Below the pieces are notes generated by a model. That model was not told the origin of the DNA, made no database searches, and worked only from the letters and a program-made list of their open reading frames with translations. Shown piece after piece: positions 5,782 through 12,805 of a stretch of 41,612 bases of DNA. Every line of letters starts with the position of its first letter. The stretch's first letter is position 1. The position numbers and the translations under genes are program-made. The stretch comes from an uncultured Erysipelotrichaceae bacterium (GTDB lineage Bacteria; Bacillota_I; Bacilli_A; Erysipelotrichales; Erysipelotrichaceae): positions 1-41,612 of the forward strand of contig CALVGN010000013.1 in assembly GCA_944327105.1 (NCBI GenBank), given 5' to 3'.

Positions 5782-6306
5782 CTAACACGACAAATATAAA
5801 TTTTCAGAATCGAACCCGATTTCTTCTGTATGGTTGAAAATCATAATCATGTCATCCATTTTTTTAACAAAAACTGTTGTCTTTGGGTTATTCAGCTGTG
5901 CAAACTCTCTTACTACGTCTCCCTGAATTTTTTTAGAGGATTGTTTCAATTTATCTCCACTTTCAGTCAAGAATTCATCAACATGGCCTTTTTCGAGTAC
6001 AGGTATTTTATTGATAGCTTTACCGAAGGTGCTACCAATAACACCGATCCCTTTAAGGACATTGGATTCAATTGCACTAGATGATGCCTTTTCCAATTTC
6101 AAGGAGCTTTCATCAAACAAATTGCGATACGATTTGGACATAGAAACAATTTGTCTTTTAATACCTTGAATGTACTCCTCATTGAAATTTCCGCTTAACA
6201 TGATCTCCATCAATGAAGCCAAAGAGTAGATATATAGCGAAAGTCGATAATATTTGAACATCTTCTCGAGATCTTCCAACAATGTATTAACTTGACTCTG
6301 AGACAA
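5782..6306 (-). CDS. Unknown protein, 3' part of a frameshifted gene
   Basis: This 174-residue frame has no convincing start of its own: it opens at a TTG with no ribosome-binding site. It continues the upstream frame (6336-6995) after a one-base backward shift at the A7 run at 6345-6339. It is mostly helical, with an amphipathic segment YYRLSLYIYSLASLMEIML, a Gly/Ser-rich patch (NVLKGIGVIGSTFGKAINKIP) and a charged C-terminus. I do not recognise a family. Read with the upstream part it makes one protein of about 404 residues. Confidence 0.5.
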   Translation of the reverse strand: MSQSQVNTLLEDLEKMFKYYRLSLYIYSLASLMEIMLSGNFNEEYIQGIKRQIVSMSKSYRNLFDESSLKLEKASSSAIESNVLKGIGVIGSTFGKAINKIPVLEKGHVDEFLTESGDKLKQSSKKIQGDVVREFAQLNNPKTTVFVKKMDDMIMIFNHTEEIGFDSENLYLSC

Positions 6307-6335
6307 TGCCAGTTTTTTACCATCGAGGGTATCAT

Positions 6336-6995
6336 TTATTTTTTTGTAATAGAAAGTGAATTTTTTCGTGCGGTACGTTGTATATCCAATACCATTTTGT
6401 GACCGCTTGAAAGAAAATATTCATTATCCCAGCTGGACTTATATTTCCTTGTAATATCCATCAACATCTCAACATCAGCTTCTACTTCCGATTCTTTTTC
6501 TATCTCCAAAAACGAAAGAATTTCCCTTTCCATTTCCTGGATTTGATCGAGATCTTTTTCGATCGAATACAACGCAATCGCTATCATTGCGGTTGCAGGA
6601 TCAATTGGTAATGTTGTGACAGATGTTGCCGTAAAATTGGATAACTCGTCCACTGGCTGAAATTTCGCCATCTTCGAAGTTCCATCTAAATCCTTTAATG
6701 CACCCCAAAAATTGCCATCCGCTGCTTTTTTTAAAGCTTCACCTATACCCTGATTTGCCACGCGATACAATCCTTCAGTCGAAAAAGAATATGTTTGAGT
6801 AAAAGTGATCAATTGAGGAACAATGGCCGACACTGCGGCTCCAAGTGTCGATAACTCAGCAAATGGAAGCTTTATTGTTTGATTGCGATCAGCAATTTGA
6901 AGCGGTTCAGCTAATACATCCTGAGTCATCTCAGTGAGTTGATTTCGAAATTCATCTACTCGGTCATAATCTTTTTTGCATGTAATTTCATCCAT
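6336..6995 (-). CDS. Unknown protein, 5' part of a frameshifted gene
   Basis: The start is ATG at 6995 (MDEITCKKDYDR), with GGGGGA nine bases upstream as ribosome-binding site; the frame is open further back but without a site. The 219-residue part has an acidic N-terminus, a small-residue hydrophobic stretch (LSTLGAAVSAIVPQLITF), a second one (DPATAMIAIALYSI) and then a charged coiled-coil-like segment. It ends at TAA directly after the slippery run. The region has no copy of the window's TGGT-N3-ACCA repeat and slightly lower GC in the lines I sampled, which is compatible with acquisition by transfer. No function can be assigned. Confidence 0.6.
   Translation of the reverse strand: MDEITCKKDYDRVDEFRNQLTEMTQDVLAEPLQIADRNQTIKLPFAELSTLGAAVSAIVPQLITFTQTYSFSTEGLYRVANQGIGEALKKAADGNFWGALKDLDGTSKMAKFQPVDELSNFTATSVTTLPIDPATAMIAIALYSIEKDLDQIQEMEREILSFLEIEKESEVEADVEMLMDITRKYKSSWDNEYFLSSGHKMVLDIQRTARKNSLSITKK
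6339..6345 (-). other. A-AAA-AAA slippery run joining the two frames
   Basis: On the coding strand the 0-frame reads ACA AAA AAA TAA. The heptamer A-AAA-AAA is a canonical -1 slippery site placed immediately before the stop. After a -1 slip the frame continues ATA AAT GAT and stays open to 5782. The cause could be an inactivating deletion, a sequencing or assembly indel, or programmed frameshifting. Confidence 0.7.
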
Positions 6996-7050
6996 GATTT
7001 GTATCCCCCAAACTATTGAACAGTTAACCATTGAGATCAATTCGTTTCAT

Positions 7051-8380: not shown

Positions 8381-8893
8381 ATGAAATATTATCGTCGCAC
8401 TGTGGCGTTTTTTGCGGTGATCTTTGGTTTCACCACAATGACGCTATTATATAACATCTTTACCCCACCCACTGTCCAAGCGCAGCCACTTTACATTGCC
8501 CGAAGCAATTTGGAAATCGAAAATCTTGAAAATTATGTGCTTTCCCTTGGTAATTCCAATCGGGTCTATGTCTTAATCGGACAAAGTGATGATGCCAATA
8601 CCGTTTACTTGACGGAAACGGTTTTGCATAATCTGGCCAATCATGCCAATGTTGAAGAATTCAGCAACCTGGATTATGTCAACGTCTCCAATCTCAATGA
8701 CCAGATACGTTTATTACTCAATAATACGTATCACCTTACCCAATTGCCCGCATTTGTTTCCTTACAAAATGATAATGGCACACTGCGAGTGACCAGTACA
8801 TTGCAATGGGATGACCAACAACCCATCGATACGTCGGATGTGCAAGAGTGGATGGAAATCAATAATATCTGGCCATCAAGCAGTGCACGATAG
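8381..8893 (+). CDS. Small exported or membrane-anchored protein of unknown function
   Basis: The 170-residue product begins with a basic tip and one hydrophobic segment (TVAFFAVIFGFTTMTLLYNIF) followed by PPTVQAQP, which could be a signal peptide with an A-x-A site or an anchor. The remainder alternates strands and helices: VYVLIGQSDDANTVYLTETVLHNL, then LPAFVSLQNDNG. This resembles a thioredoxin-like fold without a CxxC, but that is only an impression. No ribosome-binding site is evident before ATG 8381. A TATGAT lies at 8358-8363, giving at most a very short leader. The gene is followed by a strong bidirectional terminator. Confidence 0.65.
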   Translation: MKYYRRTVAFFAVIFGFTTMTLLYNIFTPPTVQAQPLYIARSNLEIENLENYVLSLGNSNRVYVLIGQSDDANTVYLTETVLHNLANHANVEEFSNLDYVNVSNLNDQIRLLLNNTYHLTQLPAFVSLQNDNGTLRVTSTLQWDDQQPIDTSDVQEWMEINNIWPSSSAR

Positions 8894-9658: not shown

Positions 9659-10356
9659 GATTTGACTCCTATAAAATCATATTTTTCGCAATCCAGTGAT
9701 GGATTTGATCGAAAATCATAATAAGTGGTGGTAGTGAATCCAACATCCGTTAATACCTGGTTCAACCATTTCCCATCGTAAATGCGTTGGACATGGGATT
9801 CATTGATCAAACCATGATCGGTATAAAAGGCAAAATGATGGTTGAGATAATCGCCATCCGTGGCAATGGTCCATTGATATCCTACCCCATCCACCCATCC
9901 TTCTTCGATAAACGGTTCTTTGAATTCATTCAAACGATTGGGATGATGGGCATCCAAGATAAAGATACCTTTAGGATTCAAATGGTCGTAGACATGTTGG
10001 ATGAAGCGGATCACATCCGCTTCATCGAGTAGATAATTCAATGTATCCACCAGGCAGAATGCACAATCATAGGTTTTATCCAGGGCAACATCTACCATGT
10101 TGCCCTGGATAAAATGGATATCTGGATATTGGGTGATGCCACAATTGATCATATCCAATGATAAGTCCACACCATCCATGGTCAAACCAAGGCAAGCAAT
10201 GGCATGAGTGATCTCACCTGTGCCACATCCAAAATCGATACCACTCGTTTTACCTGAAACAAACGGGGCGATAAAATCTACGTATTCCGCAATGGATTGG
10301 GGATCATTGACCAGATCTTGATAGTATTGGGCCAATATTGAATACATCATTGCCAT
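9655..10356 (-). CDS. yqeM: SAM-dependent methyltransferase (YqeM-like)
   Basis: A 233-residue class I methyltransferase: motif I is GIDFGCGTGEIT (about residues 39-50), followed by MDGVDLSLDMI and, at motif II/III, CAFCLVDTLNYLL. The substrate is not known for this family, which sits at the end of the yqe cluster in B. subtilis as it does here. The rsfS stop lies inside its first codons, so the start is at 10356 or at the next ATGs (10350). A weak GGA lies before 10356. It overlaps mtnN by four bases. Confidence 0.85.
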   Translation of the reverse strand: MAMMYSILAQYYQDLVNDPQSIAEYVDFIAPFVSGKTSGIDFGCGTGEITHAIACLGLTMDGVDLSLDMINCGITQYPDIHFIQGNMVDVALDKTYDCAFCLVDTLNYLLDEADVIRFIQHVYDHLNPKGIFILDAHHPNRLNEFKEPFIEEGWVDGVGYQWTIATDGDYLNHHFAFYTDHGLINESHVQRIYDGKWLNQVLTDVGFTTTTYYDFRSNPSLDCEKYDFIGVKS

Positions 10357-10700
10357 GTTATCCGCTCACAATCTCCCCATAAGCGTTCCAGATTATAGGT
10401 ATTTCTAGCTTTTGGGGTAAACAGATGGATGATGATGGAACCATAGTCCATCAATATCCACTCACTCTGGCTCAAACCATTGATGTGTTTGAGTGGATAC
10501 CCTTTCTTTTCACTCATTTCTTCAATATATCCGACCACGGCATTGGCTTGTCGGATCGAATCCACAGAAGCGATGATGAACACATCATATAAGGGGGATA
10601 CGGTAGTCATATCCAATACCACGATATCATTGCACAGTCGCTCATCCAATACCTTGGTAAAATCATGGATTTGTTGATTGATCGTGTTGTCCAGCGACAT
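10347..10700 (-). CDS. rsfS: Ribosomal silencing factor RsfS
   Basis: RsfS (YqeL/RsfA, DUF143) binds uL14 on the 50S subunit and blocks subunit joining in starvation. From ATG 10700 it is 117 residues, typical of the family. Motifs seen are VVLDMTTVSPLYDVFIIAS, ANAVVGYIEE, and the C-terminal WILMDYGSIIIHLFTPKAR followed by YNLERLWGD. A GTG at 10709 is an alternative start; GAGG is oddly close (three bases) to the ATG. It overlaps yqeK by 38 bases, suggesting translational coupling. Confidence 0.92.
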   Translation of the reverse strand: MSLDNTINQQIHDFTKVLDERLCNDIVVLDMTTVSPLYDVFIIASVDSIRQANAVVGYIEEMSEKKGYPLKHINGLSQSEWILMDYGSIIIHLFTPKARNTYNLERLWGDCERITWQ

Positions 10701-11472
10701 AAGCCTCACTTTCTTTTTGAACGGTTAAAAATCCTTTGGTTAGATCACGTTTGGATAATGCGATCAAACAAGAAGAATCATAATCTCTTCCTGGATCACA
10801 TTTATCCGCAATATAAATGATCCGTGCCAGTGGTGAAACCACATGACCGGTGGTGTGATTCGCAATGGCATTAACGATTTGACGATCGGTAATACCAAGA
10901 AAGGTTTGAATAAAGATTGCTCCCGCATATTGATGCCAGATGGGTTTGGGTTGATATAAACAGGATGGATCATACTGTTGCGTCAATGATTGAAGTCGAT
11001 CATCATCCATGTTTTTGGCGATATCATGCAATAATGCGGTTTGTTTGGTTTTGACCACATCCACACTATGACTCTTGGCCAAATCAACGGCCAGTGATGC
11101 CACTCGATAAGTATGGGCATAGCGGGATGGTTTGAGATAATGCTTGAGCATTTGATCATAATAAACCATGGATCGATTGAGATATCGGATATACCACATG
11201 GGCAAACCATGATAATCCCCATTCCGGATGGTTTCCATAGCTTGGATCAATGACGCATCATCTTCGATGGTCAAACCAATGGATGAAGGGGTCTGACCAT
11301 AATGCACATAACTTAATCCCTTCAACCAGCTTTGATTCAATCGATCGATGATCGGATGCAATGGTTGGGTCGCAACCACATAAATATCTTGGTGGTATGT
11401 ATGGTGTAAACCATGGATGATATCCAAATGATTTTTAGTCAATGGATCACATAAAGAACGAAATAAGATCAT
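10663..11472 (-). CDS. yqeK: YqeK-type HD hydrolase with a degenerate, shortened NadD domain
   Basis: The C-terminal part, from about residue 112, is a complete YqeK domain, the family shown to hydrolyse diadenosine tetraphosphate: RYAHTYRVASLA (first His), ALLHDIAKNM (HD), an HTTG element and IIYIADKCDP (distal Asp). The first 110 residues resemble the start of nicotinate-nucleotide adenylyltransferase NadD, but are about half its length. The GG-x-F-DP-x-H-x-GH signature has become RSLCDPLTKNH, and the downstream ISST-x-IR motif is not seen. NadD-YqeK gene adjacency or fusion is known in Bacillota and Mollicutes; here the NadD half looks catalytically dead. Its start overlaps the yqeI stop (ATGA). 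Confidence 0.82.
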   Translation of the reverse strand: MILFRSLCDPLTKNHLDIIHGLHHTYHQDIYVVATQPLHPIIDRLNQSWLKGLSYVHYGQTPSSIGLTIEDDASLIQAMETIRNGDYHGLPMWYIRYLNRSMVYYDQMLKHYLKPSRYAHTYRVASLAVDLAKSHSVDVVKTKQTALLHDIAKNMDDDRLQSLTQQYDPSCLYQPKPIWHQYAGAIFIQTFLGITDRQIVNAIANHTTGHVVSPLARIIYIADKCDPGRDYDSSCLIALSKRDLTKGFLTVQKESEAYVAGQHDQSTNP

Positions 11473-11756
11473 GGCAAAATGATTTTGGGCTCCTTGGCTT
11501 TTTTATACAAGACATAGGTTTTACCGATGGTTTGGACCAATTCAGCTTTGGTAAAAGCCAATGTATCCAATATCAGTTCATTCAATGGGATATCACAACT
11601 TTTCAATACATGGATCTTCACCAATTCTCTCGCAATCAATGCTTGATCGATGGAGACCAGTGTGTTTTTATCCAAACCATTCTTGCCGATCTGGAAAATG
11701 GCATTTTCTCGATTAGCAAGGGATCGTAAATAACGTTTTTGTTTTCCGTTTAACAT
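11469..11756 (-). CDS. yqeI: RNA-binding protein YqeI (CRS1/YhbY domain)
   Basis: YhbY/CRM-domain proteins bind pre-50S ribosomal particles. From ATG 11756 (MLNGKQKRYLRSLA) the product is 95 residues, the family length. It has the diagnostic KNGL (IFQIGKNGLD) and the ELVKIHVLKSC strand, then AELVQTIGKTYVLYKKAKE. The long upstream extension of this frame lies in yqeH and has no family similarity. AGAGG lies 11 bases before the ATG, and the gap from yqeH is two bases. In B. subtilis aroE lies between yqeH and yqeI; it is absent here. Confidence 0.9.
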   Translation of the reverse strand: MLNGKQKRYLRSLANRENAIFQIGKNGLDKNTLVSIDQALIARELVKIHVLKSCDIPLNELILDTLAFTKAELVQTIGKTYVLYKKAKEPKIILP

Positions 11757-11758
11757 GG

Positions 11759-12805
11759 TTAAATCATCCTCTTTCTGATGGTATAGCTCACTTGTTTGGG
11801 TAATGTCATGGATAATGCTGTGGTTTGACCATGGAAACTCATCCACCCCAATCCATTGATACATAGATCACGCCCATCGAGTGGTTCAGAAATAACGATC
11901 GTTTCATATTCACGATGACTCCATGGTTTCAATAATGTTCCCAAATGGTTGGACCAAAGCTTTTTGGCATTATCCAGTGGTGTGCGGTGGATCTTAAGAT
12001 TGTTTTCCAGATACATCACGATCGAAACGGTTGATTGTGGCACGATATCGATACGCATCAATCCACCAATACTATAGGATTGAGGCGAATAGCATTGATA
12101 GACACTGGGTTTGATGGGTTTAGTTGGAAGTAATGCTTTGATGGTCGAATCATCCACAGCCTGTAAGATACTCTCGCTGTTTTCGATACCCGGGGTATCG
12201 ATAATGGTCAAACCATTATCTAAATGGATGGGATTGAAATCGATCGTCGTTCCGGGATAGCGGGAAGTGGTCAGGATCTTTTGATTCAACAAACCATTGA
12301 GCAATGTGCTTTTACCCGCATTCGCACGCCCAGCAAAGATCGATACCGAGTCCACAGCATAGGGTTTCAACTGGTCTAATAAGACTGTATTATGGTCAAG
12401 ACCATAATCACCGGTAACAATCAATCCATCCACACTGATGTTCATGGATTTCAATCGATCCATGATAAAACCATAGTACTTTTGTGAATCGATGATATCG
12501 ACCAATAAATCCGTCTTGGTAACCACCAAGACGATGGATCGATTGGAAAACAAAGCATTGAAATCATCCATGAATCCATGATCAATATCCAATCCATCCA
12601 CTACCCATACCAACGTTCCTTTTGTTTTTTGGATAGTTTCAACCACACGATCCGGATCGATCCCTGTTTTTAAAGAAACCATCTGATCCCCATAATGGCT
12701 CAAACGAAAACAACGCTGACAGTATTTACTCTCTTTTTTTGGTGTATATCCCAACTGGTTTGGATCATCATATTGCAGGGTCACACCACAACCTTTACAT
12801 TTCAC
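11759..12805 (-). CDS. yqeH: Ribosome-assembly GTPase YqeH
   Basis: YqeH is a circularly permuted GTPase needed for 30S assembly. From GTG 12805 the product is 348 residues and begins with the family's zinc finger (KCKGCGVTLQ ... YCQRCFRLSHY). The permuted G motifs are KTD (G4, VVTKTDLL), then G1 as GRANAGKSTLLN, then the GTTID (G2) and DTPG (G3) elements. An ATG is available upstream at 12834, but it precedes the -10 box and would add residues before the zinc finger. It is the first gene of the operon to mtnN and follows the parC terminator. Confidence 0.9.
   Translation of the reverse strand: MKCKGCGVTLQYDDPNQLGYTPKKESKYCQRCFRLSHYGDQMVSLKTGIDPDRVVETIQKTKGTLVWVVDGLDIDHGFMDDFNALFSNRSIVLVVTKTDLLVDIIDSQKYYGFIMDRLKSMNISVDGLIVTGDYGLDHNTVLLDQLKPYAVDSVSIFAGRANAGKSTLLNGLLNQKILTTSRYPGTTIDFNPIHLDNGLTIIDTPGIENSESILQAVDDSTIKALLPTKPIKPSVYQCYSPQSYSIGGLMRIDIVPQSTVSIVMYLENNLKIHRTPLDNAKKLWSNHLGTLLKPWSHREYETIVISEPLDGRDLCINGLGWMSFHGQTTALSMTLPKQVSYTIRKRMI

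Follow-up and report, generated by a model that had tools for sequence, protein, structure and literature searches.

Half-length NadD remnants fused to YqeK in the Erysipelotrichaceae: a probable case of recurrent domain atrophy

The window, that is, the whole stretch of 41,612 nucleotides analysed here, belongs to a genome of the family Erysipelotrichaceae (1.61 Mb, 97% complete). On its minus strand it carries, in this order, yqeH (12940-11759); yhbY, with a CRS1_YhbY domain (11469..11864); a fusion gene of half a NadD and YqeK (10663..11472), which encodes 269 aa; rsfS (10347..10709); and a methyltransferase gene. The ATG of the fusion gene overlaps the yhbY stop codon by 4 bases (ATGA), its 3′ end is overlapped by rsfS, and its frame is free from internal stops. 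Residues 1–107 (11152..11472, minus strand) represent an atrophied NadD domain, delimited by profiles, a leave-one-out HMM and the predicted fold, in which the middle is deleted and the ends are kept. The approximate junction, where about 70 NadD core residues are gone, spans residues 60–78 (11239..11295, minus strand), with inexact borders because the window sequence is diverged. It is followed by the retained NadD C-terminal helices (residues 79–106; 11155..11238, minus strand) and by the YqeK HD hydrolase domain (residues 108–263; 10684..11151, minus strand), in which the metal-site residues are present. Elsewhere in the window, three ORFs of 170–234 aa, at 5782-7040 (minus strand) and 8381-8893 (plus strand), had no Pfam match.

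The YqeK part scored 104.6 bits against TIGR00488, for which the curated cut-off is 70.15, and its predicted fold aligns with those of solved YqeKs (Z 22). Residues H120, H149, D150, H180, H206 and D223 are invariant; in an alignment of 28 half forms, one of them that of the window, every invariant position falls within the YqeK part. The score and the intact HD residues bear out the first-pass annotation, made from the window alone, which had called this domain complete, and its sequence is that of an active-looking Ap4A hydrolase. The model for the entire fusion, NF005519, did not reach its cut-off on the window protein (130 bits of the required 315), and the match runs from model position 160 onward, starting at residue 81, within the last NadD helices. 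A different arrangement is found in genome G046 (L165:889-2001), where a YqeK without NadD part is C-terminally fused to a methyltransferase, as though the downstream methyltransferase of the window's gene order had been joined to it.

The N-terminal 109 aa of the window protein, searched alone, matched no family in Pfam or NCBIfam, and the match of this domain alone to an intact-NadD profile was not significant (hhalign probability 3.7%). Common descent with NadD was established through the relatives. An HMM of the half domains, built without the window sequence, matched the window domain at 25.3 bits (E 7.4e-10), whereas the highest score among 2000 shuffles was 7.8 bits. The half-domain profile, in turn, aligned with intact fused NadD over 114 columns (hhalign probability 99.6%, E 1.6e-24), with one large internal gap: NadD positions ~4–76 and 145–187 are kept in the half forms and ~77–145 are absent. 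When profiles were made genus by genus, those of g18, g32, g48, g24, g27, g20, g53 and g46 each matched intact NadD (probability 97–99.8), and a similar central gap was present in all eight. Genera g5, g16, g19 and g57, as well as the single g1 sequence, which is that of the window, did not match intact NadD when taken alone.

The AlphaFold2 model of residues 1–112 presents a β-α-β-α-β arrangement plus C-terminal helices (pLDDT 79, pTM 0.69), with low confidence at residues 35–65. A plain Foldseek search with this model was weak, with E no better than 0.04 and PPAT and NadD in the top rows; a second structural alignment placed NadD, NMNAT and PPAT among the top rows, with Z up to 8.6 over residues 1–111. 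Hence the profiles of the relatives and the predicted fold agree with the initial description of a half-length, degraded NadD fused to YqeK, and the ORF of the window is confirmed as a complete YqeK behind a NadD remnant of ~107 residues. The profile match and the fold rule out an unrelated N-terminal extension. That an intact fusion is masked by a frameshift or an assembly error, a possibility considered earlier, was also rejected: the NadD middle is wholly absent, yhbY abuts directly on the gene, and the same form recurs in many genomes, being found in 13 genera as an uninterrupted frame kept by selection.

Conservation was counted in alignment numbering in 117 full forms and compared with the half forms. 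In the full forms, the GG pair, the two His, Gly17, Lys45, Glu75, Gly105, Asp107, Trp115, Arg132, the SS pair and R159 are 94–100% conserved; in the half forms, these active-site residues are found at 0–34%, except for R159 at 41%. The residues kept in the half forms are F11 (95%), P13 (94%), Y180 (88%), G161 (80%), D12 (78%) and R55 (77%). The NadD nucleotide motif, GG-x-F-D-P-x-(H/T)-x-G-H, reads RSLCDPLTKNH in the window protein; GG and F are lost, as had been noticed at first sight, but the segment CDPLTKNH keeps D, P, T and H, so that the T and H of (H/T)xxH survive as TKNH. The second half of NadD, with W, R and SSTxIR, is likewise not conserved, positions ~77–145 being absent together with W and R132. 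The ~70 residues lost come from the centre of the domain, not from its end. The SSTxIR region had been considered missing; SST is indeed replaced, but IR is still present, together with the last NadD helices (ETIRNGDYHGLPMWYIRYLNRSMVYY). Since the established NadD motifs are lost, adenylyl transfer by the half form is, from its sequence, very unlikely.

On another contig of the same genome (G000:C30), pncB, nadD and nadE are found in a row with overlapping ends. This separate NadD has intact motifs (GGTFNPLTNAH and ISSTNVR), and scored 111.6–111.9 bits against TIGR00482, slightly below the curated 112.45. The first-pass annotation had supposed that NaMN adenylation must be supplied by another gene or bypassed through salvage. 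The former proved right. The bypass is ruled out for this genome: as an intact nadD lies between pncB and nadE, the NadD step is itself part of nicotinate salvage, and one compact operon would thus both produce and consume NaMN.

A survey of 146 genomes of the family, with classes counted from open-frame lengths, revealed the full NadD-YqeK fusion in 90, which answers the earlier suggestion to look for intact fusions in relatives. The half form was found in 35 genomes, an intermediate form in one, and YqeK alone in 12; in the remaining genomes the gene is lacking, cut by a contig end or of another architecture. The N-terminal lengths fall into two tight classes, mostly 181–193 and ~100–118 residues, with the intermediate G138 between them at 146; all 35 half forms have an open frame. 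In three genera (g3, g37 and g45), YqeK carries no NadD part. The named relatives are Erysipelotrichaceae such as Holdemania, Solobacterium, Allobaculum and Faecalicoccus, among others. The matches listed for the neighbouring family in this order are full fusions (368–388 aa), and the named Sharpea, Coprobacillus and Faecalibacillus also have full fusions, so that the full fusion looks ancestral.

Among the matches listed, a separate NadD was present in 0 of the 90 full-fusion genomes versus 41 of the 48 reduced ones (Fisher p 3e-28, with related genomes not being independent). The separate gene often adjoins pncB, and its presence makes the fused copy redundant. Two separate NadDs are part of other fusions: in the half-form genome G052 (L106:2400-4973), the domains CTP_transf_like, CN_hydrolase and NAD_synthase form a single 858-aa frame, a fusion to glutamine-dependent NAD synthetase; and in G017 (L125:1836-3089), NadD and a nitroreductase-like domain (TM1586_NiRdase) form an in-frame fusion. 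In six half-form genomes of 80–98% completeness (G131, G100, G019, G073, G056 and G089), NadD, PncB and full-length NadE were not detected, which may reflect assembly gaps; NadR was looked for in the genomes without NadD and none was found. PnuC is present in three of these six.

The phylogenetic tree of the HD part is incompatible with the reduced forms having arisen only once (AU p=0.00014), which rules out one ancestral deletion. The supported branches require the full state to have changed at least 5 times, and parsimony counts 11 changes, the exact number being limited by the 160 columns and the long branches; the placement of the window in this tree is unsure (support 72). Full and half forms, two of each, make up sister pairs within genus g24 (support 96); the intermediate, another member of this genus, is without only about NadD positions 86–119. 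These sisters, the intermediate and the 35 open half-form genes show that the loss of core elements is no artefact of gene models or alignment. Recurrent, independent domain atrophy with similar borders in the Erysipelotrichaceae is the best reading. In the NadD tree, all sampled fused NadDs were included in one group (support 99), and the separate NadDs, 40 of 40, were all placed elsewhere, forming three clusters or more. Excision of the fused domain as the source of the separate NadD is ruled out by this tree, and the fused domain was therefore displaced, not moved.

The half domains are under purifying selection, with dN/dS of 0.04–0.37 in many pairs from several genera; these values are those of the relatives, since the genus of the window has a single genome. 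They are about twice the value of the HD part and far below 1. In addition, the model of the whole window protein (pLDDT 89.5, pTM 0.87) suggests, by the pTM of its two domains, that the remnant packs on the HD domain. We propose, with a probability of about 65%, that an atrophied NadD, displaced by a NadD from another branch, is kept as a non-catalytic cap which supports the fold or assembly of YqeK. The full NadD-YqeK fusion would already have been present in the ancestor of the order; in the lineage of the window, NaMN adenylation would have passed to a NadD of another branch, the one now encoded in the pncB-nadD-nadE operon; and the fused domain would then have been deprived of ~70 central residues and of its active site. 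Its first β-α-β-α-β half and last helices would remain as a folded, non-catalytic cap, which may support the fold or assembly of the active-looking YqeK hydrolase. We infer this order of events, separate NadD first and shrinkage later. Of the roles considered for the remnant, that of a structural cap is the most economical. Counting against it are the three genera whose YqeK lacks the NadD part; as they lost it, the half domain would be useful but not indispensable, and dispensable somewhere. Where a regulatory or structural appendage had been suggested before, a non-catalytic appendage is supported, and of the two roles the structural one is favoured.

A possible but doubtful alternative is that the half NadD has been re-invented repeatedly, being trimmed to the same half-Rossmann cap each time NadD was supplied elsewhere, because this cap has a real job for YqeK in assembly, allostery or partner binding. 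If so, a lost catalytic domain would converge on a new, conserved and non-enzymatic domain. Less probable is a pure relic, in which the half domain would be a useless remainder of NadD heading to the total loss already finished in g3, g37 and g45. The existence of these YqeK-only relatives, the twofold faster evolution of the half domain relative to the HD part, and the divergence of g5, g16, g19 and g57 past individual recognition are in agreement with decay; on the other hand, the dN/dS values are far from neutral, the 35 frames are all open, and the lengths gather at ~100–118 residues and do not scatter. It is unlikely that the remnant is a regulatory sensor that binds a nucleotide and tunes YqeK, an idea to which its recurrent retention and the F-D-P loop, the best-kept stretch and adjacent to the NadD nucleotide site, lend something, since in most half forms GG, both His, Lys, Trp, Arg and SST are lost or deleted and the canonical site cannot form. 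A tether that docks on the separate NadD or its product, bringing YqeK there and keeping a proofreading link, would accord with the NadD-fused YqeK of a mycoplasma, which hydrolyses wrong NadD products (PMC9426524), but it is very improbable, as the half domain is kept in the six genomes without detectable NadD, and separate NadDs are spread over at least three clusters.

Returning to the non-catalytic cap, a single enzyme domain has shrunk repeatedly and independently in this family; one genus contains full, intermediate and half states, and others show total loss. A second NadD from another branch is the likely trigger, and selection acts on what remains; the minimum size of such a domain and the reason for keeping a dead one thereby become testable. 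In practice, the annotation “nadD-yqeK” in Erysipelotrichaceae is no safe sign of NadD activity. Half a NadD on YqeK, generally or in this family, was not reported in the literature searched, outside which lie most subscription journals.

The full NadD-YqeK fusion, common in Erysipelotrichaceae, is known from mycoplasmas, where YqeK was proposed to proofread NadD products (PMC9426524). With this fusion (NF005519; JCVISYN3A_0380 of Mycoplasma JCVI-Syn3A), the window protein shares the domain order and the YqeK HD hydrolase, but its NadD part has half the length and is without the catalytic motifs. With YqeK as symmetrical Ap4A hydrolase (TIGR00488), it shares the C-terminal 160 residues, the conserved HD residues and the fold, and differs in bearing the additional N-terminal remnant. 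Domain atrophy is a named phenomenon, described as extremely rare (Prakash and Bateman 2015, PMC4432964). The present case resembles those within-domain examples in its large core loss inside a Rossmann-like domain; the remainder has a predicted fold and, in relatives, shows purifying selection. Most of those cases retain the functional site, whereas the present one has lost it, in independent events with similar borders, alongside a surviving intermediate and an identified displacing gene.
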